From contig JAETTM010000037.1 of NCBI GenBank assembly GCA_021769135.1, positions 1 through 40,649 on the forward strand: a stretch of 40,649 nucleotides of DNA. Reading direction: 5' to 3'. Made by a program: the position numbers and the translations under genes. This DNA is from Lachnospiraceae bacterium (GTDB lineage Bacteria > Bacillota > Clostridia > Lachnospirales > Lachnospiraceae). This document shows, in pieces, positions 2,319 through 40,649 of the stretch; the stretch's first letter is position 1, and the number at the start of each line of letters is the position of its first letter. The notes beneath the pieces were generated by a model, which made no database searches, had not been told where the DNA came from, and saw nothing but the letters and a program-made list of their open reading frames with translations.

Positions 2319-3962
2319 ATGTATCAGGATAATAAAATATGGATTGGGAAATCAGGAAGCGAAAAAGTTTATATCCATCCCCGGATGGCGAACCGGCATG
2401 GAATGATTGCCGGGGCAACGGGAACAGGAAAGACTGTCACGTTGAAGGTGCTGGCGGAGTCTTTCAGCGAATGCGGCGTCCCGGTATTTCTCGCCGACGT
2501 AAAAGGCGATTTGGCAGGGGTATGCAGAAAAGGGGATGAGAGCGAAAGCATTAAAAAACGGATGGATTCCATGGAACTTGAAGGGGAAGGCTTCCAGTTC
2601 CAGCCATGCCCGTCGGCTTTCTGGGATATTTACGGGGAGAAGGGCCTGCCCCTCCGGGCGACGGTTTCCGAGATGGGACCGCTGTTGCTTTCAAGGATTC
2701 TTGAACTGAACGAAACGCAATCGGATATTCTGACGGTAATATTTAAAATAGCGGATGACGAACAGCTTCTGCTTTTGGATACAAAGGATTTGCGCTCCAT
2801 GGTACAGTACGTGAGCGAAAATGCAGGCGAATACAGCGCAAGATACGGGAATCTTGCGAAACAGAGCCTGGGCGCTATTATGAGGGCCATTGTCGCGCTG
2901 GAAGCGGAAGGCGGGGAAAGCTTTTTTGGTGAGCCGGCTTTAAACCTTAGCGACTGGCTGTGCAGAGACTGCGACGGAAAAGGCGTAATTCAGGTGCTGG
3001 ATTGCCAGAAACTGGTGCAGAATCCCGCAATGTATTCAACTTTCCTGCTCTGGATGATGTCGGAGCTTTTTGAGAATCTGCCGGAGGTCGGGGATAAGGA
3101 AAAGCCTAAAATGATATTTTTCTTTGACGAGGCGCATCTGCTGTTTGATTCCGCCTCAAAATCACTGCTTGGGAAGATAGAGCAGGTGGTGAAGCTGATT
3201 CGTTCCAAGGGGGTGGGCATCTATTTTATTACGCAGAGCCCGAAGGATATTCCCGACGGTGTGCTTGGGCAGCTGGGGAATAAAATACAGCATGCGCTTC
3301 ATGCCTATACGCCGTCAGAACAGAAGGCGGTCAGGGCGGCGGCACAGTCATTCAGGGAAAACCCTGATTTTGATACCGTCGAGGCGCTGACTTCCCTGGA
3401 AATCGGCGAGGCGCTTGTATCCGTCCTGGATGAAAGCGGGATTCCGACCATTGTAAAGAAATGCAGGATACTGCCTCCCCAGAGCCGGATGGGAACCATT
3501 ACGGAGGAAGAGAGGAAAGAGGAAATAGAGGGAAGCCTCCTTTACAACAGGTATTTCCAAACGGTAGACAGGGAATCCGCCTATGAAATATTGGAGAAAA
3601 AGGTCCTGGCAGACAGGGAAAACGAGGAAAAGGCCCGAAAGGAAGCGGAAGAGGAAAAACAGAGGCAGAAGGAGGAAGCCGCGGCGGAAAAGCAGAGACA
3701 GAAAGAGGAAGCTGCGGCGGAAAAGAAGAAGCAGAGGGAGGAAGAAGCGGCAAGGAAGGCCGCAGAGAAAAAGGCGGAGGCCCAAAGCAAACGGGTTAAA
3801 AGCGCAATGAAGCAGACGGCAAGCAGCGCGGCCGGCACCATAGGCAGGGAGGTCGGCAACAGCGTAGGGAAATCCCTGGGGGGCAGCTTTGGGAAAAAGA
3901 TTGGCGGCAATGTGGGTGCTTCCCTGGGCAGGGGCATATTGAATACCCTGTTTAAGCTGTAG
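2319..3962 (+). CDS. HerA/YjgR-like (DUF853) ATPase
   Basis: The 547-residue product has a Walker A motif GATGTGKT at residues 32-39 and a Walker B block MIFFFDEAHLLF near residues 264-275, followed by LIRSKGVGIYFITQSP typical of HerA/FtsK-type P-loop ATPases. The N-terminal segment IHPRMANRHGMIAGATG matches the YjgR (DUF853) style. After about residue 425 comes a Lys/Glu/Ala-rich coiled coil, then a glycine-rich tail ending ILNTLFKL that could sit in a membrane. The frame is open from 2283, but ATG 2319 with AAGGAAAGGG 8 bases upstream is the likely start. HerA relatives move DNA; the exact role of YjgR proteins is not established. Confidence 0.85.
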   Translation: MYQDNKIWIGKSGSEKVYIHPRMANRHGMIAGATGTGKTVTLKVLAESFSECGVPVFLADVKGDLAGVCRKGDESESIKKRMDSMELEGEGFQFQPCPSAFWDIYGEKGLPLRATVSEMGPLLLSRILELNETQSDILTVIFKIADDEQLLLLDTKDLRSMVQYVSENAGEYSARYGNLAKQSLGAIMRAIVALEAEGGESFFGEPALNLSDWLCRDCDGKGVIQVLDCQKLVQNPAMYSTFLLWMMSELFENLPEVGDKEKPKMIFFFDEAHLLFDSASKSLLGKIEQVVKLIRSKGVGIYFITQSPKDIPDGVLGQLGNKIQHALHAYTPSEQKAVRAAAQSFRENPDFDTVEALTSLEIGEALVSVLDESGIPTIVKKCRILPPQSRMGTITEEERKEEIEGSLLYNRYFQTVDRESAYEILEKKVLADRENEEKARKEAEEEKQRQKEEAAAEKQRQKEEAAAEKKKQREEEAARKAAEKKAEAQSKRVKSAMKQTASSAAGTIGREVGNSVGKSLGGSFGKKIGGNVGASLGRGILNTLFKL

Positions 3963-30907: not shown

Positions 30908-31519
30908 ATGAAAAAAAGATTGGTATCTATTCTATTGTCAGCATTGATGGTGGCATCGCTGACAACAGCCTGTGGCGGTAACGCAGAAACAGCAGCTCCT
31001 GCACCAGCGGCGGAGACAGAAACGGCAGCGGAGGAACCGGCAGCAGAGGAACCGGCCGAAGAGACGGAAACGGAAACTGAAACTGAAACGGAAAGCGAAG
31101 ATGTGGCTGCTGACGATGGCGCTTCGGAGGAATTTACGCTTCTCGACGTTTCCACAGATATGATTGAGGCAGGGGTTTATGCTGTAAGCGAAGACGGAAC
31201 GGAACTTGTATTCTCATTGTTTACCGAGCCTTCAGGAACACCGATGGCTTCCCTGTTCGTATTTCCTGCAGAAGGCGAGGGCGATGTAATCTGCGGTACT
31301 TATTCGGCGGAAAATGAGACGGATGAGGACGGGATATCATGGACATTGCTGACAGTTACGGATGCATATACGGATGGAGAATTCGAGATAGGATTCGGCG
31401 AGTCGGACGCGGGTGAAGTTTATATCTTTGATACACAGGGAACTCCTTATGAAGGAGAATATCTCTCTGCGGACGACACCATCACCTATATGGGTACGGC
31501 TGCCGCTTTAATGGAATAG
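30908..31519 (+). CDS. Small secreted lipoprotein with acidic linker
   Basis: From ATG 30908 (GGAGGAAAAG upstream) the product has 203 residues. The signal peptide MKKRLVSILLSALMVASLTT leads to a lipobox Cys (TTAC). A linker of about 55 residues rich in Ala, Glu and Thr follows, including a run of alternating Glu-Thr. The rest (about residues 75-203) is a compact beta-rich domain (YAVSEDGTELVFSLFTEP, SWTLLTVTDAYTDGEFEIGF) of no recognised family. It is probably tethered to the outer face of the membrane. It has its own terminator and stands directly before the composite response regulator, which might relate to sensing; that is speculation. Confidence 0.75.
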   Translation: MKKRLVSILLSALMVASLTTACGGNAETAAPAPAAETETAAEEPAAEEPAEETETETETETESEDVAADDGASEEFTLLDVSTDMIEAGVYAVSEDGTELVFSLFTEPSGTPMASLFVFPAEGEGDVICGTYSAENETDEDGISWTLLTVTDAYTDGEFEIGFGESDAGEVYIFDTQGTPYEGEYLSADDTITYMGTAAALME

Positions 31520-31565: not shown

Positions 31566-31596
31566 GAGCCGGCCGAAGGAAAGGCCGGTTCTGTTT
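31566..31596 (+). terminator. Rho-independent terminator after the lipoprotein
   Basis: GAGCCGGCC (31566-31574) pairs with GGCCGGTTC (31583-31591) with one wobble, followed by TGTTT. It separates the lipoprotein gene from the response regulator. The 136 bases from 31597 to 31732 contain no clear promoter. Confidence 0.6.
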
Positions 31597-31732: not shown

Positions 31733-33172
31733 ATGCGGATAGCAGTCTGCGATGACGACGAGAGGGAAGTTTCCCGCATTGGGAAGCTGATTACAGAATA
31801 TCAGATAAGCCGTGAAGAATTTATTGAATGCCATTATTTTACGAACAGCATAGATTTTTTGTGTGAATTGAAGGGCGGGGAGTATGACCTTGTCCTGATG
31901 GATATCCTGATGCCGGGAACTAATGGAATAAAGGCGGCGCAGGAGATAAGGGAACTGGATAAAAATGTCCGGCTTATTTTTGTATCCGCATCGCCGGAGT
32001 TTGCCGTGGAAAGTTACAGCGTGGGGGCCTACTATTATCTGCTGAAACCGATAGATACGGATTCCTTTTTTGCCTTACTGGACAAAATAGGGGGAGAATT
32101 GTCCGTACAGGTCGAACAAGGGTTTATAGTTAAAAGCAGAGAGGGCATTGTCAGGATTGCTTTCTCCAGCCTTGCATATGTGGAGGTTATTAATAAAACC
32201 GTATTCTTTCATTTGGCGGATGGAGTTGTCCATGAAGCAACCGCCACTTTGGCTGATTTTGAGGAGAAGCTGCTGTCAAGGCCTGGCTTTTTGAAAACAC
32301 ACCGCTCCTATCTTGTCAATTTGGGCTGTATTCAAGCTATTGATATTAATTGCGTTATAATGAAGAATGGGAACAGCGTTCCGGTATCGCGCCAACGGCG
32401 CAGCCAGGTTCAGGATGCCTATATGGACTTTCTGCGCAAGTCGGGAACAGGGGAACTCGTATCCGATTCCGGCAAGCCGGAACGCCCTGACGGACTTTGG
32501 AGGATTCTGCTGGTAGATGACGAGCCGGCGGAAAGTGCTGTCTGGGCGGATATCTTGCAAAGCCATGGCTGTATTGTACAGATGGCGGCGAATGGGGAGG
32601 AGGCGTTGCGGCTGGTAGCGGATGCCCCTTGCGACTGTGTGCTTCTGGATGTGATGATTCCCGGTGAGGATGGATTTTCTATCTGTGAAAGGATTCATAA
32701 GATAATGGACGTACCGATTATTTTCCTAAGCTGCCTTACAGAGCCGGATAAGCAGGTGGAAGGGTTTGAGGCAGGCGGTATAGACTATATCACGAAGGAT
32801 ACGCCTGCAGAGCTCTTCTGGGCGAAGGTGGAAACACGCATCAGGCTGACGATGTCGGAGCGCACGCAGCTGCGCTTTGGCCCTCTCCTTCTCGATTTGA
32901 CGAAGCGCAGGCTGTTGATGGATGAAAAGGAGCTGATTCTTACGCCCGTTGAGTTTGATATCCTGTGCCATTTTTCGGAGCATCCAGGGCAAATCTTTAC
33001 GCCGGAAGATATTTATGGCATGATATGGGGCGGCCAGCCCTGGGATGGCGGGCAGCAGGTACAAATGCATATGTCACGGCTTCGGCGGAAGCTGGAAAAG
33101 GCGTGGGAGGAACATCGTTTTATAGAGACGATATGGGGCCAGGGCTATCGGTTCGTGCCTCCAAAGCAATGA
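31733..33172 (+). CDS. Composite response regulator: REC-LytTR-REC-winged helix
   Basis: The 479-residue product is a continuous frame with four domains. REC1 (1-119) has D7/D8, phospho-acceptor D57 in LVLMDILMPG and K105 in LLKP. A LytTR DNA-binding domain (about 128-235) includes LKTHRSYLVNL. A linker of about 20 residues leads to REC2 (256-372), with ILLVDDE, D306 in CVLLDVMIPGEDG and K355 in YITKD. The C-terminus is an OmpR/PhoB winged helix (380-479: LTPVEFDILCHFSEHPGQIF, VQMHMSRLRRKLE, WGQGYRFV). Normally these are two separate regulators. The start at 31733 has GGAGG upstream. The kinase gene lies 48 bases downstream. Confidence 0.9.
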   Translation: MRIAVCDDDEREVSRIGKLITEYQISREEFIECHYFTNSIDFLCELKGGEYDLVLMDILMPGTNGIKAAQEIRELDKNVRLIFVSASPEFAVESYSVGAYYYLLKPIDTDSFFALLDKIGGELSVQVEQGFIVKSREGIVRIAFSSLAYVEVINKTVFFHLADGVVHEATATLADFEEKLLSRPGFLKTHRSYLVNLGCIQAIDINCVIMKNGNSVPVSRQRRSQVQDAYMDFLRKSGTGELVSDSGKPERPDGLWRILLVDDEPAESAVWADILQSHGCIVQMAANGEEALRLVADAPCDCVLLDVMIPGEDGFSICERIHKIMDVPIIFLSCLTEPDKQVEGFEAGGIDYITKDTPAELFWAKVETRIRLTMSERTQLRFGPLLLDLTKRRLLMDEKELILTPVEFDILCHFSEHPGQIFTPEDIYGMIWGGQPWDGGQQVQMHMSRLRRKLEKAWEEHRFIETIWGQGYRFVPPKQ

Positions 33173-33220: not shown

Positions 33221-35146
33221 ATGAAACAGTACAAGGCATGGCGGCAGCCATTATTTGTATTGGCTATGACGGCGGCTTTTCTCATCTTTCTTTTCTATGG
33301 GGACAATAAATATCATACGCCGCCTCCTTATGGTAAATCAGGGATCATCAGCCTGACCGAAGCGGATTTAGGTCGGAATAATCCTATTTTTCTCGTTGAC
33401 GGGTGGCTGTTGACGGATGCGCGTGTGGCGGATAGGCCGACTTATATTGGGGAATTTTCCAATTTGCAGCGCAGAGATTTGTCGGTTTCGCCCCACGGGC
33501 AGGCGCGTTACCAGTTGACGCTGCGCTATGATGGAACAGAGCGGATTGTGTCGGTGGATTTCCCGCAGCTATGCTCCGAGTATACGGTTCTGCTGGATGG
33601 AATAAAGCTCGATGAGGGCACGGGCAGCGGACGGATTACATTTTTGCTGACGGCGGGCGAGCACACTCTTGTTGTGGAGACTTCGTCTAAAATAGGGTAT
33701 TACAGCGGAATGTATTTTCCGCCTGCCCTGGGCACCGCAGAGACGCTTTTCCAGGTGAGCAGTGTTCAGAGTTTTGCTTATACGTTTGCTTGTTTAATCC
33801 CATTGGCTCTGGCGGTATTTACGCTTTTTCTCTGGCAGACAGGGGGAAGGCTCGCCCGTTGGTTTGGAGTGCTGTGCTGTGGTTATGCCCTGTATATGGT
33901 GCGCTATTTTGTATTCCTGCTGTCATATTTTGTTTCCCTCCCTATTGTGCAATATTGGTTTTTGATACAGAGTCTGGCGATGTACGTTTTGTGTTTCTGC
34001 GTCATACAGCTTACGGTTCTGGCATCCGGCGCTATCCGCAGTAAAGTGTGGCGTTGGTCGCGGATAATATTGATTGTGCTCCCTGCCGCTTTGGCAGCAT
34101 TTAGCCTGCTGGTTCCGGTATTGCCCTGGGCGGTTTATGTTCATGGAAAGCTGACGGATTTTTATTATGTTGTCATCTTTTGCGCAGCCGCTTATTTTTC
34201 GGCGAAGGGTATAACGGTACAGAGCTGGGAAAGCCGTTATACGCTGGCTGGTTGTACTGTGTTCGGGGTGGGGCTGCTGGCTAATCTTTTCTTTTCCAAC
34301 CGTTTTGAGCCCATCCGTTTTTTCTGGCAGTTTGAGTGGTGCGGGTTTTTGCTGGTGCTTCTGTTTGGTGCTATGATGGTATCGCGCAGCCGCCGTATTT
34401 TGAAGGAAAATGATGTGTTGACCAACCATTTGGAGGAGCAGGTGAAGGAGCGCACGGAGGAGGTTACCCAGCTTTTGAATGAGCGCAAGGCATTCTTCTC
34501 CGATATGGCCCATGACTTGAAGGCGCCGGTATTTGCCACCCAGTCTTTTATCGAGGCGATTCGAAAAAGCGGCGTAGGCGTGGACTCTGAATTGCAGAAT
34601 TACCTCGATTTGGCGCAGGCCAAGCAGTGGGAAATGGCAAGGCGCCTTCAAGGGCTTTCCACGATTAACGCGCTGGATAAGATTGATGGGGAAAGGGTTC
34701 GGATGTCTATCAAGGAGATTCTTTCGGAAGTTTATGCCGCCCATTGCGGGGAAGCCGAAGTGCAGTCCGTGTATTTGATTGTGGAGCCGCCAAAGCAGGA
34801 TGCGTTTCTGATGGCACAGCCGGAGAAAATGAATATCCTTTTTGAGAATCTTATTTACAACGCGCTTAGGGCGACGCCCCGCAATGGGAGCATCACCATA
34901 TCCGCATGGGCAGAGGAAGATAAAATCCGCATGGCGGTGGAGGATACCGGCTGCGGTATCCCGGAAGAGGAACTTCCGCTCGTCTTCCGCCGGTTTTATG
35001 TGGGCGCGAAGAACAAGGAGACCGGAACGGGATTGGGGCTGTATATTGTCCATGGCATTGTGGCTGAATTAGGGGGAACAATCGACGTGCAATCCGCTGT
35101 GGGGGAAGGTACGAAATTTATCATGGAATTTCCACGAAATAAATAA
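33221..35146 (+). CDS. Membrane sensor histidine kinase with 7TM-type sensor
   Basis: The 641-residue protein has one N-terminal helix (about 10-27), an extracellular beta-rich region to about residue 185 (RYQLTLRYDGTERIVSVDFP, FLLTAGEHTLVVETSS), then about seven helices (190-390). A coiled coil, HisKA with phospho-His H431 in SDMAHDLKAPV, and HATPase with NLIYNALRAT, DTGCGIPEEELPLVFRRFYV and GTGLGLYIVHGIV follow. The layout resembles 7TMR-DISM kinases. It is the cognate kinase of the preceding composite regulator by position. AAAGGAGGGA precedes ATG 33221. The gene shares a bidirectional terminator with the convergent surface-protein gene. Confidence 0.92.
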   Translation: MKQYKAWRQPLFVLAMTAAFLIFLFYGDNKYHTPPPYGKSGIISLTEADLGRNNPIFLVDGWLLTDARVADRPTYIGEFSNLQRRDLSVSPHGQARYQLTLRYDGTERIVSVDFPQLCSEYTVLLDGIKLDEGTGSGRITFLLTAGEHTLVVETSSKIGYYSGMYFPPALGTAETLFQVSSVQSFAYTFACLIPLALAVFTLFLWQTGGRLARWFGVLCCGYALYMVRYFVFLLSYFVSLPIVQYWFLIQSLAMYVLCFCVIQLTVLASGAIRSKVWRWSRIILIVLPAALAAFSLLVPVLPWAVYVHGKLTDFYYVVIFCAAAYFSAKGITVQSWESRYTLAGCTVFGVGLLANLFFSNRFEPIRFFWQFEWCGFLLVLLFGAMMVSRSRRILKENDVLTNHLEEQVKERTEEVTQLLNERKAFFSDMAHDLKAPVFATQSFIEAIRKSGVGVDSELQNYLDLAQAKQWEMARRLQGLSTINALDKIDGERVRMSIKEILSEVYAAHCGEAEVQSVYLIVEPPKQDAFLMAQPEKMNILFENLIYNALRATPRNGSITISAWAEEDKIRMAVEDTGCGIPEEELPLVFRRFYVGAKNKETGTGLGLYIVHGIVAELGGTIDVQSAVGEGTKFIMEFPRNK

Positions 35147-35188
35147 AAAAGGTTCGGATTCCGTAACAGGGAAGCCGAACCTTTTTTT
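35145..35188. terminator. Bidirectional terminator between kinase and surface protein genes
   Basis: AAAAAAGGTTCGG (35145-35157) pairs with CCGAACCTTTTTTT (35175-35188). Runs of A on the left and T on the right allow termination from both strands. Each arm touches a stop codon region, so the convergent genes share it. Confidence 0.85.
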
Positions 35189-37286
35189 ATTTGCATGGTT
35201 CCTTTCGGAATATGGCTGCGATAAGACGAAACAGGCCGCATTTTGCCGTCTTGCGGATGGCCGCGCCGATACAGCTGCCTGCCGCTATGACAGCTATTGC
35301 AGAGAGAAGAGGTATGCGGCTGTCCTTTTCTGTGGAATGCTCAATGGATGTTTCCACATCGGACAAAGCCGGAACGATTTTTTCCTCTTTTCCATCTGCC
35401 GCGGGGGAAGCGGATATTAGGCCGCTCATCTGACTCGCTACGGACGCGTCAGAGGCGTTTGACGTAGAAGAAGGGGGGCGCTGTTGATCCTGATGACTGT
35501 TATCGGGTCCAGGAGCCGTGTTTTGCTGTTGTTCTCCATGACTGTTATCCGCCCCGGAAGGCGTGTTCTGCTGCTTTCCATGACTGCTATCGGGCCCGGA
35601 AGCTGTGTTTTGCTGCTGCACCCTATGGTTGTCATGGTTGTTATCCGCCCCAGGAGTCAGGTTCTGCTGTTCCCCAAAATCATTATCTGTGTTTGAAGTC
35701 GGATTCTGCGGTTGCTCCTGTTGATTGTCGTCCGGTTCCGCAGGTGGGTCCGGATGCAGCTCTTCCTGATTGTCGTCCGGTTCCGCAGGCGGGTCCGGAT
35801 GCAGCTCTTCCTGATTGTCGTCCGGTTCCGCAGGCGGGTTCGGCTGTTGTTCTTCCGGATTGTCATCCGGTGTCTGGGGAAGGTCAGGTCGCTGTCCGCT
35901 TTCCGTGCTGTCGCCCTTATTGCCGGCCCCTGCATTGCCTTCATTTCCTTCGGCTCCGCTGAACTTTGGCAGGTCAGGGAGCTGTTCATAGGTATCCGGC
36001 CATGCGAGGATGAGCTGCTTTCCATCGTAGATGCCGCCTTTAATTTCCATCCCTATATAAAACGGCGTGGGGGAAGTTCCCTCTTTCTGGGCTGCCAGAT
36101 AAGACTGGTAGGGCTCCTGGTCATGGCGGAGCACCAGTGCAAAGCCGCTGTTTTCAGTGGAGGGATGGGCATTCATCTCTTTTAACAGCGAGAGCCCGGA
36201 AAGTTTGGTCCATTCTGATTCCCCTTCTGTCAATACATATGCCTGTATGGATTCAGCGCCGGTGGGCTTGTGGTGAAGCGATATTTTCAATCCGTCATTG
36301 TCCTTTTTTAACACCCCTGTGGGATTCCCGTCCTCCGGGCAGATATTTAAAACCAGGCTGACTTCGTCTGTGGATGGGGGAGTATCCAGGCTAAGCGGCG
36401 TATCCAGCTGAAAGGTACCGACCGGTGTGGAAACCAGGGTGCCGGCTGGAACAAGAATCTCTTCGGCGGCATCCGTAATCGTTATGCTTTCACCGGCCGA
36501 AAGCCGGGGAAGGGATAGCGGTTTCCATGTGACGGGGCAGTCAACAATTCCTATAGCTATAAAATTGGATCCGTTATCGAATTGTACTTCAACGGGAAGC
36601 GTATCCGGCAAAAATGCGGATATTTCTTCGGCTGTGGCATCTGCGGGTACGGTAATCTGGTATTTGCCGTATTTACGATAACGGTATGGAGAGGACGGAA
36701 CCGATTCCTGGACGGCAATATCAGAAGAAAACCATGCCCTTCGTTTTGTACCCTCAGGAAGCGGCTGCAAACCGCCCCGTTCAATAGTTGCGGGCTGGGT
36801 ATCATAGGAAAGCCCGTTTTGTTTAGTGATGCGCAGTTTAAGATAAAAGCGGTCTATTTCTCCCTCAATATAACTCTTCAGAGGCTCATCGGCGTTAAAG
36901 AGGCAGGTTTGGTTTTGCAGCCCGTGTATCCTGTATTCGTCATCGGTGCCCAAATCGAACAGGTTCCAATTGTGATTTCTGATACTGGCCTGCCAGTTCG
37001 CCCCATCCAGCGAATAGAGCGGCTGGACCTGGATGATATCGGGCGTAAAGTCCGTAAAAGTACCTATTACAGTATAGCCCATCCGCAGCTCTATGCGGGC
37101 ATGGAACGGGGGCGCCTCGTCAGGAATCGGGAAATCGGCTCCATCCTCTGGCATGGCTATATTGCCTGATACGGTTGTTACAGTCTCTTCCGGCGCCTGG
37201 CCCGTCTCCATTGCGGATACCGGAAAGCTGCCGGACAAAATAAATGCTGTGGCAAATATTGCCATAAATTTTTGCTGTGTTTTCAT
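35187..37286 (-). CDS. Large surface protein with acidic Pro/Asn/Gln repeats and C-terminal anchor
   Basis: From ATG 37286 the product has 699 residues. The signal peptide MKTQQKFMAIFATAFILSGS ends near FPVSA. A folded region of about 400 residues follows (WFSSDIAVQESVPSSPYRYR, PVEVQFDNGSNFIAIGIVD, LVLNICPEDGNPTGVLK), of no recognised family. From about residue 450 comes a low-complexity zone: three 15-residue repeats of PPAEPDDNQEELHPD type, then units such as QQNTASGPDSSHG. A hydrophobic helix (LLSAIAVIAAGSCIGAAI) and a basic tail end the protein; no LPxTG motif is seen. The frame is open for 24 more codons. It is probably an anchored envelope protein. Confidence 0.85.
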   Translation of the reverse strand: MKTQQKFMAIFATAFILSGSFPVSAMETGQAPEETVTTVSGNIAMPEDGADFPIPDEAPPFHARIELRMGYTVIGTFTDFTPDIIQVQPLYSLDGANWQASIRNHNWNLFDLGTDDEYRIHGLQNQTCLFNADEPLKSYIEGEIDRFYLKLRITKQNGLSYDTQPATIERGGLQPLPEGTKRRAWFSSDIAVQESVPSSPYRYRKYGKYQITVPADATAEEISAFLPDTLPVEVQFDNGSNFIAIGIVDCPVTWKPLSLPRLSAGESITITDAAEEILVPAGTLVSTPVGTFQLDTPLSLDTPPSTDEVSLVLNICPEDGNPTGVLKKDNDGLKISLHHKPTGAESIQAYVLTEGESEWTKLSGLSLLKEMNAHPSTENSGFALVLRHDQEPYQSYLAAQKEGTSPTPFYIGMEIKGGIYDGKQLILAWPDTYEQLPDLPKFSGAEGNEGNAGAGNKGDSTESGQRPDLPQTPDDNPEEQQPNPPAEPDDNQEELHPDPPAEPDDNQEELHPDPPAEPDDNQQEQPQNPTSNTDNDFGEQQNLTPGADNNHDNHRVQQQNTASGPDSSHGKQQNTPSGADNSHGEQQQNTAPGPDNSHQDQQRPPSSTSNASDASVASQMSGLISASPAADGKEEKIVPALSDVETSIEHSTEKDSRIPLLSAIAVIAAGSCIGAAIRKTAKCGLFRLIAAIFRKEPCK
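35500..35660. repeat. Imperfect coding repeats, about 45 bp
   Basis: Four or so imperfect units carrying the motif for SGPDSSHGKQQNT-like peptides lie inside the surface-protein gene. They encode the Gln/Asn/Ser-rich part just before the membrane anchor. Confidence 0.6.
35723..35857. repeat. 45-bp coding tandem repeats (three copies)
   Basis: Units begin at 35723, 35768 and 35813, each starting GATTGTCGTCCGG; a degenerate fourth begins at 35858. They encode the acidic PPAEPDDNQEELHPD repeats of the surface protein on the minus strand. Units 1 and 2 are nearly identical, so the number may vary between strains. Confidence 0.85.
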
Positions 37287-37406
37287 ATATGTACTCATTT
37301 CTCGCAATTGTTTAAAAACCCAATTTACCGTTCGCGCAGTTTCAGCAACATTTCGCACTGCCGATGTTTTTTTGGGCGACTGTTTGATATATTAATTTGT
37401 ATAATA

Positions 37407-37435
37407 ATTTTAAATGGGAAATCATGCTCTGTCAA
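37407..37435 (-). promoter_or_regulatory. Promoter of the surface-protein gene
   Basis: On the minus strand TTGACA (37435-37430) and TAAAAT (37412-37407) are exactly 17 bases apart. The leader to ATG 37286 is about 115 bases. It reads away from the LytTR system at 37502, which starts 66 bases to the right. Confidence 0.65.
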
Positions 37436-37501: not shown

Positions 37502-38239
37502 ATGATAAAGGTCGCATTTTGTGATGATGATATGTCGGTATTGGACGAACTAAAAGGCTTGCTTAATCGGTATTGTAAAAAACGCCATCAGGAAATCGAG
37601 TGCGCTGCTTTTTATAGTTCGTTGGAATTGCTGGCTGAAATTGAAAAAGGCGTGCGCTATGACATATTGTTTTTGGATGTTATCCTTCCAAATGAAAATG
37701 GAATCAGTATCGCAAAAGAAATCCGGCAGTACGACAGTGTCGTAAAAATTATTTTTCTGACATCGTCCTCCGAGTTTGCGATTCAGTCCTATACGGTGGG
37801 CGCGTATTTTTATCAGATGAAACCGATTTGGGAGGAAAATTTTTTCAGGCTGATGGATTCCGCCATATCCGAATGTAGAAAGGAAGAGCAAAACAGCCTG
37901 ATTTTACGTTGCAAAAGCGGGATTACAAGGATAGACCTAAGCAGGCTGGAATATTGCGAAGTGCTTGGGCGTACCTTGTTGTTCCATATGGAAAATGGCA
38001 GCGTTTTGGAGGGCACCGGGAGTATGGATAAACTATATGTACAGTTGTCGCAATATGAAAATTTCGTGCGCCCGCACCGCTCGTTTTTAATTAATATGGA
38101 ATACATAACGAAGATTTCCCACAAGGCAATCACAATGGAAAATCTGGCGGAGATTCCTATTCCGCATGGGAAGTGCTGCGAAATTAAGAATTTGTATCTT
38201 GAATATGCTTTTGATAGAAAACAGGTATTTATATCATGA
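37502..38239 (+). CDS. LytTR-family response regulator
   Basis: The 245-residue protein has a receiver (MIKVAFCDDDMSVLDELKG, D59 in ILFLDVILPNENG, Lys in QMKPIWE) and a C-terminal LytTR DNA-binding domain (LILRCKSGITRIDLSRLEYC, FVRPHRSFLINMEYI). It resembles the first half of the composite regulator at 31733. The kinase gene overlaps its stop by four bases (ATGA), a sign of translational coupling. The divergent surface-protein gene is only about 215 bases away and could be a target. AAAGG stands upstream of the start. Confidence 0.93.
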   Translation: MIKVAFCDDDMSVLDELKGLLNRYCKKRHQEIECAAFYSSLELLAEIEKGVRYDILFLDVILPNENGISIAKEIRQYDSVVKIIFLTSSSEFAIQSYTVGAYFYQMKPIWEENFFRLMDSAISECRKEEQNSLILRCKSGITRIDLSRLEYCEVLGRTLLFHMENGSVLEGTGSMDKLYVQLSQYENFVRPHRSFLINMEYITKISHKAITMENLAEIPIPHGKCCEIKNLYLEYAFDRKQVFIS

Positions 38240-39504
38240 TTATTATCCATTGGATTAACCTCACATCAGTAGGCATTTTTGGAATGGCCTTATCCGCTGC
38301 ATTCTGCAATATTCTTTGGACGCGGAAGAAAGTCCTCGCCATGTCGGCCGGTATGGCCGTGATTTTGTTGTTCCAGGGCATCATTTACTTTGGGGTTGAT
38401 TCAAATATCGTGGAGAGGATTTATCCACTCATTACGCATATTCCCCTGATAGTGGTGCTCTGCATCCTGAATAGAAAATGTTTATGGCCGGCGGTTTCAG
38501 TTTTGACGGCCTATTTGTGCTGTCAGCTCCGCCGTTGGCTGGCGTTGCTGGTGGTGGCTATATTTTCAGGCGGTTCCGTAATGCAGGATATTGCGGAACT
38601 GGCGGCAACGTTTCCTATTTTGCTCATTTTAATAAAATTTATTGCGCCAGCTGTGCGTTCTGTTTCGGATTATCCGATTCCGCTGCAGTGCCAGTTTGGC
38701 TTGGTGCCCGCATTATACTACGGTTTCGATTATCTGACGCGCATCTATACGGATTTGCTTTTGGAGGGCGTTCTGGCCGCCGTGGAATTCATGCCGTTTG
38801 TATGCAGTGTGACATATTTGTTCTACGTAGTTCACAGCTCGGAGGAGTGGCGGATTCGCAGCAGGCTGGAGCAGACGCAGGAAATATTGAATCTGCAAAT
38901 CGAGCAGGCAGTCCGTGAAATTGCCGTACTGCGCGAGTCGCAGGAAAAAACAAGCGCTTACCGCCACGACATGCGCCATCATATGCAGTATCTTTCTTCC
39001 TGTATTGAAAATGGGCAGCTTAAGCAGGCGCAGGGATATATTCAGGAAATCTATTCCGAAATCGAGGCGAATAAGGTGACGGTATTTTGCGAAAATGAGG
39101 CTGCAAACCTGATTTTTTCCGCATTTGCAAGGAGGGCTGAGGATAATGGCATCCTGATGCAGGTTGGCGCAAGGATTCCCCGGGTTATTCCTATGTCCGA
39201 AACCGACCTGTGCGTCCTGTTGTCCAACGCATTGGAAAATGCGTTGCATGCCTGCAGGGAGCAAGGCGAAAAGGGGCAGGCGGGGGTAATCGAGGTCTCA
39301 GTGTATGAAAAAAAGGGGAAACTTTTTTTGCAGATAATCAATTCGTGTGGGGAGGACATCGCTTTAAACGATGGGATTCCTGTCACAAACAAGTCGGGGC
39401 ACGGGATTGGTGTGCGGAGCATTTGTGCTATTGTGGAAAAATATGGAGGCATATACACTTTTTCTGCGGGAGACGGACGGTTTATTCTGCGCATTTCCAT
39501 ATAA
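38236..39504 (+). CDS. GHKL-type sensor histidine kinase (AgrC/NatK-like)
   Basis: The 422-residue protein has about six hydrophobic segments in its first 200 residues, then a coiled coil and a dimerisation helix with phospho-His H244 in SAYRHDMRHHMQYL. The ATPase part of the GHKL type shows LLSNALENALHACRE as N-box and GHGIGVRSICAIVEKYGGIY as G-box. Such kinases often sense peptides. It overlaps the preceding LytTR regulator by four bases and is its cognate partner. No autoinducing-peptide gene is seen nearby. The gene is intact, and 141 bases with a promoter follow before the SPFH gene. Confidence 0.92.
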   Translation: MIIIHWINLTSVGIFGMALSAAFCNILWTRKKVLAMSAGMAVILLFQGIIYFGVDSNIVERIYPLITHIPLIVVLCILNRKCLWPAVSVLTAYLCCQLRRWLALLVVAIFSGGSVMQDIAELAATFPILLILIKFIAPAVRSVSDYPIPLQCQFGLVPALYYGFDYLTRIYTDLLLEGVLAAVEFMPFVCSVTYLFYVVHSSEEWRIRSRLEQTQEILNLQIEQAVREIAVLRESQEKTSAYRHDMRHHMQYLSSCIENGQLKQAQGYIQEIYSEIEANKVTVFCENEAANLIFSAFARRAEDNGILMQVGARIPRVIPMSETDLCVLLSNALENALHACREQGEKGQAGVIEVSVYEKKGKLFLQIINSCGEDIALNDGIPVTNKSGHGIGVRSICAIVEKYGGIYTFSAGDGRFILRISI

Positions 39505-39645: not shown

Positions 39646-40649
39646 ATGGGTTTGATTAAAGCCGGAATGGGCGCGTTGGAAGGAACGCTTGCGGATCAGT
39701 GGAAGGAGTTTTTTTACTGTGAAGCGATGGATAAGGATGTGATGGTTACAAAGGGGAAGAAACGTACGAGCTCGCGTTCTTCCAATACAAAAGGAAGCGA
39801 CAATGTCATTTCCAACGGCAGTATGATCGCCGTGGCGGACGGCCAGTGTATGATGATTGTGGAGCAGGGGAAAATTGTGGAAGTATGTGCGGAGCCGGGT
39901 GAATTCAAATATGATACATCTACGGAACCGAGCGTTTTTACAGGGAACCTTGGAACAAGCATCAAGGAAACTTTCATGACAATTGGCAAGCGTTTTACGT
40001 TTGGAGGCGACACAGGCAAGGATCAGAGGGTGTACTACTTTAATACGAAGGAACTGGTGGACAATAAGTTCGGAACGCCGAATCCAATCCCTTTCCGCGT
40101 GGTGGATTCCAAGATTGGACTGGATGTGGATGTCTCTGTCCGCTGCTCAGGCGTTTACTCGTATAAAATAGCTGACCCATTGCTGTTTTATACGAATGTA
40201 TGCGGCAACATAGAGGCGGATTATGAACGGGGCGAGCTGGATAGCCAGCTGAAAACGGAATTTATCAGCGCGCTTCAGCCGGCATTTGGCAGACTCTCGG
40301 ATTTGGAACTGCGTCCGAACCAGATTGTTGCCCATAATGCGGAGCTGGAGGATGCGATGAATATCGCCCTTTCGGCAAAATGGGGAGAACTGCGCGGATT
40401 AAAGGTAGTCAGTATCGCGCTGGGCTCTGTCACCTTGCCGGAGGAAGACGCGGAGATGATTAAGCAGCTGCAGCGCACAGCCGTTTTGCAGAACCCCAAT
40501 ATGGCAGGGGCGGCGCTTGTAGGCGCCCAGGCGGATGCCATGAAGGCGGCAGCATCCAACACCGCCGGGGCAATGACAGGTTTTATGGGCATGGGAATGG
40601 CTATGAATGCCGGTGGAGGCATGAACGCCCAGAACCTGTTTGCAATGGG
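39646..40649 (+). CDS. SPFH-domain protein (YdjI-like), cut by window end
   Basis: The frame is open from ATG 39646 to the window end, giving 334 residues without a stop. It begins MGLIKAGMGALEGTLADQWK, then CEAMDKDVMVTKGKKRTS and an SPFH/Band-7 domain (GSMIAVADGQCMMIVEQGKI, PIPFRVVDSKIGLDVDVSVR, GELDSQLKTEFISALQPAF, LRGLKVVSIALGSVTLPEED). A Gly/Met/Ala-rich segment (GAMTGFMGMGMAMNAGG) follows. This matches the bacterial 'virion core'/YdjI family, which often has a zinc ribbon at the missing end and works in membrane stress. AAAGGGG precedes the start by eight bases. Confidence 0.88.
   Translation, partial: MGLIKAGMGALEGTLADQWKEFFYCEAMDKDVMVTKGKKRTSSRSSNTKGSDNVISNGSMIAVADGQCMMIVEQGKIVEVCAEPGEFKYDTSTEPSVFTGNLGTSIKETFMTIGKRFTFGGDTGKDQRVYYFNTKELVDNKFGTPNPIPFRVVDSKIGLDVDVSVRCSGVYSYKIADPLLFYTNVCGNIEADYERGELDSQLKTEFISALQPAFGRLSDLELRPNQIVAHNAELEDAMNIALSAKWGELRGLKVVSIALGSVTLPEEDAEMIKQLQRTAVLQNPNMAGAALVGAQADAMKAAASNTAGAMTGFMGMGMAMNAGGGMNAQNLFAM

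Follow-up and report, generated by a model that had tools for sequence, protein, structure and literature searches.

The window, here the whole 40,649-nucleotide stretch of Lachnospiraceae DNA that was analysed, encodes a 479-residue protein, RR4, in which two response regulators of different classes are read as one chain with the domain order REC1-LytTR-REC2-winged helix. The fusion itself is very secure. Its frame runs uninterrupted from the ATG at 31733 to a stop codon ending at 33172; the open reading frame listing extends further upstream to a TTG at 31595, but homologues align from the ATG. Four Pfam domains (Response_reg twice, LytTR and Trans_reg_C) are present in this frame, and every family passes its curated cut-off. 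A sequence-only reading had proposed that regulators of two classes share this protein and that both DNA-binding domains are present, and these proposals are borne out. Coordinates of the features discussed are given in Table 1.

Table 1. Features of the RR4 locus, with the basis on which each was assigned (positions in the window unless a locus is named).
Feature	Position	Strand	Basis
Fusion response regulator RR4, 479 aa, REC1-LytTR-REC2-winged helix	31733..33172	+	Open frame, Pfam, alignment
REC1 (residues 1-118; D57, K105)	31733..32086	+	Second Pfam Response_reg stretch; limits from alignment
LytTR DNA-binding domain (138-229)	32144..32419	+	Pfam PF04397, 3.7e-16; phmmer to 3d6w, 4cbv
Linker (235-255), variable in sequence and in whole-codon length	32435..32497	+	Alignment, dN/dS
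REC2 (258-361; D306, K355)	32504..32815	+	Pfam PF00072; alignment
OmpR/PhoB-type winged helix (399-474)	32927..33154	+	Pfam PF00486 Trans_reg_C, 7.2e-20; match to solved regulators
Membrane histidine kinase (HATPase_c; weak HisKA; 7TM-like by eye)	33221..35146	+	Pfam; HisKA below cut-off
Predicted secreted, membrane-anchored surface protein	35187..37286	-	Signal and anchor by eye
Conserved 30-bp element, a pair of 9-bp direct repeats with 12 bp between them; proposed LytTR operator	37327..37356	.	Leader alignment, genome counts
Promoter-like TTGACA-17-TAAAAT upstream of surface gene	37407..37435	-	Leader inspection
RR2, separate REC-LytTR response regulator	37502..38239	+	Pfam, tree
GHKL histidine kinase (AgrC-like), proposed second input	38236..39504	+	Pfam HATPase_c_5; kinase searches
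Band 7/LemA/SHOCT/C11 examples	39646-40647; L048 5595-7106; L049 3193-6035; L077 11227-14792; L022 16682-18001		Pfam

Residues 1-229 comprise a receiver with the phospho-acceptor D57 followed by LytTR, the arrangement of a LytTR response regulator, and residues 258-474 comprise a receiver followed by Trans_reg_C, the arrangement of the OmpR/PhoB class. The Asp and Lys pairs noted earlier in both receivers are confirmed in the alignment, with D57 and K105 kept in all four REC1-bearing rows (read off the alignment) and D306 and K355 invariant in all seven rows of homologues. The C-terminal half matches the solved OmpR-type regulators BaeR (7.2e-32) and MtrA (1.3e-31), and the LytTR part matches the solved LytTR proteins 3d6w (3.1e-6) and ComE (4cbv; 0.0025). 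The LytTR family motif is given as FhRhHRS in the available excerpt of PMC4227749; the corresponding segment in RR4 is FLKTHRS, with Lys replacing Arg and Thr at a hydrophobic position, and F186, H190, R191 and S192 are invariant in seven of seven rows.

The complete four-domain protein is present in three further species, spanning two genera in all, with identities of 64-77%. Sixteen genomes of the window's genus yielded full RR4 in the window's own genome (G000), in G014 (77%) and in G009 (64%), as well as a shorter form in G013; a draw of 397 genomes from the family contributed the full protein of G071, a member of another genus (69%), and the short form of G380; and eight genomes of this second genus gave the full form in G071 and the short form in G380 and G416. 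Order, class and phylum draws (392, 331 and 338 overlapping genomes, at thresholds of 1e-52, 1e-50 and 1e-50) contained no further four-domain protein, just stand-alone LytTR regulators. The RR4 searches covered 1, 16, 397, 8, 392, 331 and 338 genomes, with overlap among the draws, and because the four large draws were limited to four scored candidates per genome and to thresholds of 1e-50 or 1e-52, distant fusions may have escaped them.

All four domains are under purifying selection. Between G000 and G014 the dN/dS values are 0.18 for REC1, 0.12 for LytTR, 0.14 for REC2 and 0.16 for the winged helix, with 0.27 for the 21-codon linker; over six pairs the domain values range from 0.06 to 0.22 where dS is unsaturated (0.09-0.18 for REC1), and the linker reaches 0.81. 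In the alignment the linker varies in length among homologues by whole codons, which answers the concern that a sequencing error or frame change near the linker had produced the fusion, and the full-length proteins in three other species dispose of the companion concern that homologues would always be two separate genes. The window is a single contig from a draft assembly of 152, so that an artefact of sequencing or assembly joining two genes could be imagined, but four assemblies display the same fusion with linkers that differ by whole codons, and we regard this explanation as ruled out for practical purposes.

A scan of genome contigs returned two irrelevant loci. Among the plasmid matches listed, at least four records have one place covering at least 80% of RR4; the first three of these are two adjoining separate OmpR-type genes with no fusion, the fourth (H4) is listed with the same two genes as the third, and a partial match (H5) is a single ordinary regulator. 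None of 252 matching phage records covers more than 80% of RR4, and the architecture is absent from the titles and abstracts of the literature matches listed. Each half of RR4 is an ordinary member of a known family, and the combination was not met in the searched genomes outside the two genera, nor among the literature matches listed.

RR4 is the first gene of a five-gene module that also includes a membrane kinase, a convergently transcribed surface protein gene, the LytTR regulator RR2 and a GHKL kinase. This order is identical in G000, G009 and G071, in all of which RR2 is divergent from the surface gene and RR2 and the GHKL kinase are intact frames alongside a REC1-bearing RR4; in G014 the first three module genes are followed by the end of the contig. 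Genes upstream of RR4 vary between loci. In the window a small lipoprotein-like gene without a clear Pfam match lies directly upstream (30908-31516), and its counterpart in G014 (L021 6126-7205) looks by eye to be internally duplicated. The membrane kinase adjoins the regulator in all eight loci (G000, G014, G009, G071, G013, G380, G416 and the unfused G354), and from this adjacency it is the probable partner of REC2. In several genomes RR2/GHKL pairs lie near Band 7 (SPFH), LemA, SHOCT and clostripain (C11) peptidase genes, assigned by Pfam for the examples in the window, L048, L049, L022 and L077 and by eye for the rest, and these surroundings are perhaps a membrane-stress neighbourhood.

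The surface protein has no Pfam match up to E = 1. Its alignment (A2) shows a signal-like start, a conserved region of ~400 residues, a repetitive stretch rich in Pro, Asp, Asn and Gln, and a hydrophobic C-terminal end. It was found in five of the 397 family genomes (E up to 1e-15) and in six of 24 genomes of the two genera (E up to 1e-10), seven different genomes in total, and all of these encode either RR4 or its three-domain form, except G354, which has the free regulator. The converse does not hold, as G013 has the three-domain form and the surface protein was not found there. Single-sequence structure models of the surface protein (mean pLDDT 31.7) and of the sensor domain of the membrane kinase (mean pLDDT 41.9) were unusable.

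The locus of G354, a genome from a third genus with 7% contamination, has the GHKL kinase, RR2, a free OmpR-type regulator lacking any LytTR part, the membrane kinase and the surface protein all side by side. Identities to the window are 53% for the GHKL kinase, 61% for RR2, 52% for the membrane kinase and 33% for the surface protein, and the free regulator is 42% identical to the REC2-winged helix portion of RR4. In the trees the C-terminal halves of the fusions join this free regulator (support 100/100), and the N-terminal halves cluster, with moderate support (86/89), among stand-alone LytTR regulators from this family and another, and fall outside the RR2 clade (100/99). As the G354 regulator is unfused and the two halves have these separate affinities, the locus's own OmpR-type regulator probably gained its REC-LytTR part later, from a regulator of a sister lineage. 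A recent copy of RR2 as the source of the N-terminal half is disfavoured by the same groupings. In G684, from another family, two LytTR genes lie head to head (L072 1552-2286, leftwards, and 2399-3178, rightwards), one of RR2 type and the other grouping with the N-terminal half of RR4.

Three relatives lack REC1. The proteins of G013, G380 and G416 (361, 364 and 371 residues) have the order LytTR-REC-winged helix and occupy the same place before the kinase; in the alignment a few initial REC1 residues remain in G013 and run straight into LytTR. Apart from the receivers of neighbouring LytTR genes, REC1 was not found near the short-form genes in any of the three. The neighbouring LytTR regulator is also broken, decayed or replaced in all three genomes. 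As assembled, the RR2 frame of G013 (L049 2083-2823, leftwards) is broken within LytTR, with stops, and resumes later; G380 has a diverged pair whose regulator and kinase are 32% and 30% identical to those of the window; and G416 (L026 13997-14613, leftwards) has, upstream of the surface gene, a LytTR regulator that lacks its first 48 residues, together with a kinase remnant of 18 residues. No surface gene lies between the membrane kinase and the GHKL gene in G013. REC1, the 30-bp element described below and an intact RR2 are thus jointly missing from these three genomes, a pattern that rests on few events, since G380 is closely related to G416 and the trees are compatible with either one loss of REC1 or two.

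The leaders of the surface genes share a block, with 14 adjacent columns identical in all four, that holds the conserved 30-bp element, a candidate LytTR site. Its geometry fits published LytTR sites, which the available excerpts describe as paired direct repeats of 9 bp with a spacing of 10-13 bp (PMC11347149) or as repeats of 9-11 nt, either direct or inverse, spaced by 11-13 (PMC4847170), and the left repeat has TTCGCGCA, fitting the RcoM consensus TTCNNGCA as quoted in the excerpt of PMC11347149. The repeat score is 8/11 at period 21, and it is equalled or exceeded by other period-22 pairs in three of the four leaders. Among 11 whole genomes, exact copies number one each in G000, G009, G014 and G071, all before the surface gene, and zero in the other seven (G013, G380, G416, G354, G001, G007 and G414), the four sequences with a copy being the ones from which the pattern had been built. 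With up to two mismatches allowed, matches to the element are fewer than those to a reversed-pattern control in all 11 genomes.

A promoter of the form TTGACA-17-TA(A/G)AAT lies 120, 156 and 203 nt before the start codon in G000, G009 and G014 respectively, with the element downstream of it; G380 and G416, which lack the element, have a promoter of this kind 38 nt before the start codon, and no such promoter occurs within the 300 nt examined in G071. The position of the element downstream of a near-consensus promoter in three genomes suggests that it acts in repression of the surface gene, for which AgrA at bsaA provides a precedent (PMC4227749, in the available excerpt); a LytTR-dependent promoter closer to the surface gene is a possible alternative. 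The earlier suggestion that RR4 might bridge two kinds of promoter is therefore at most half supported, there being one LytTR-like element and, on inspection by eye, no winged-helix site.

A direct-repeat operator is our preferred reading of the element, although the block also folds as an inverted repeat, which leaves its reader unproven. It could instead be a hairpin in the leader RNA, or an inverted repeat recognized by a different protein. A stem of 10 pairs is compatible with 37 of 40 cells; in all four leaders one helix is complete, its changes being one-sided and tolerated by G-U pairing, and sliding the partner along reduces pairing to 12.5-47.5%. But no pair is changed on both sides, the folding energies are no better than those of shuffled sequences (z of 0.25, -0.93, 0.12 and 0.25), there is no Rfam match, and the stem was derived from these same four sequences, so that we consider this explanation very unlikely. 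If the element is a LytTR operator, its distribution makes RR4 a better candidate to bind it than RR2, because G354, with RR2 beside the surface gene, and G414, also with RR2, both lack the exact element, and because the element is always 40-68 nt away from the start codon of the surface gene but lies anywhere between ~140 and 445 nt from RR2. These same observations weigh against the converse proposal, that RR2 binds the element and controls the surface gene and that the REC1-LytTR part of RR4 acts elsewhere or mainly modulates RR2 through mixed dimers. RR2 is itself a LytTR regulator adjoining the element, however, and the joint absence of REC1 and intact RR2 fits a physical partnership equally well; on balance we think this proposal doubtful, with a minor but real chance of being correct.

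The source of the signal for REC1 is a related question. A GHKL kinase lies in the fetched flank of 13 of 17 stand-alone LytTR loci found with the RR4 query (L052, L053, L070 and L087 lack one), a set that is not confined to relatives of the N-terminal half, as the tree places G667 (L068) and single genes of G189 (L053) and G684 (the L070 match) with RR2. The set also includes L078-L087, which are outside the tree, and leaves out the matches of four further genomes. A search of G000 with the G681 partner kinase ranks the kinase at 38236 first (6.7e-42, against 1.0e-31 for the runner-up), and the orthologue of the 38236 kinase likewise leads in G009, G071, G013 and G354; in G014, whose genome is 81% complete and encodes the full fusion, no orthologue turned up. 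The sequence-only reading had put forward this GHKL kinase as a possible second input. These flanking kinases, the G681 match and the alteration of RR2 in all three genomes without REC1 lend the idea circumstantial support; what it had left unweighed is that the kinase already has a LytTR regulator of its own in RR2, which is the obvious recipient of its signal and could itself bind the element. REC1 might be no second input at all, serving as a dimerization or regulatory module or answering to the same adjacent kinase, with the winged helix alone acting at promoters. Three species manage without REC1, and just one kinase directly adjoins RR4, but the phosphorylation residues are kept in all four proteins, REC1 shows the low dN/dS given above, and GHKL kinases accompany most of the stand-alone relatives, all of which makes this account unlikely.

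The kinase pairing, DNA binding, direction of change and sign of regulation that we infer can be combined into a tentative scheme, to which we give somewhat less than an even chance, in which RR4 is a two-input, two-output regulator. The REC2-winged helix part would be the original regulator of the locus, phosphorylated by the membrane kinase, and a complete REC-LytTR regulator from a GHKL-associated lineage would have been fused in frame to its N terminus. REC1 would receive phosphate from a GHKL kinase, most likely that at 38236, and the LytTR domain would bind the 30-bp element and so control the surface-protein gene, tying two signals to one module. By these steps RR4 would let two sensors act on one target. 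A stricter version, in which the GHKL and HisKA-type kinases each phosphorylate their own receiver and the two DNA-binding folds read two sites, with the surface gene as the LytTR target, is possible but carries somewhat more doubt; it would make RR4 a gate in a single protein, and in the sister species the absence of the receiver goes with absence of the operator and with a partner regulator that is broken or replaced.

In the usual picture of two-component signalling, each kinase is paired with one regulator and the pathways are insulated from one another except at promoters; in RR4 two such pathways appear to be joined in one chain. The unfused locus of a third genus, the four full fusions and the three relatives without REC1, with corresponding differences in the DNA upstream of the likely target gene, are natural controls, and this set allows tests of how insulated pathways link and unlink and of whether one polypeptide can hold two kinase specificities apart.

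Comparison with known systems shows which parts of RR4 are familiar. As in the LytTR regulators AgrA, VirR, ComE and YpdB, a REC domain is combined with a LytTR domain bearing the HRS motif, GHKL kinases lie beside most stand-alone relatives, and a candidate site has the published repeat geometry; unlike in these proteins, the LytTR regulator is only the N-terminal half of RR4, and a second, unrelated regulator ends the chain. Similarly, the REC2 and winged-helix portion aligns over its full length with OmpR/PhoB-type regulators such as BaeR, MtrA and PhoB and is followed directly by a histidine kinase gene, but it is fused behind a complete REC-LytTR regulator and is free only in the related G354 locus. 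PleD, which is among the receiver matches of RR4, has two receivers and so shares with it the presence of more than one receiver per response regulator; unlike in PleD, each receiver of RR4 precedes its own DNA-binding domain, and the two domains are of different folds.
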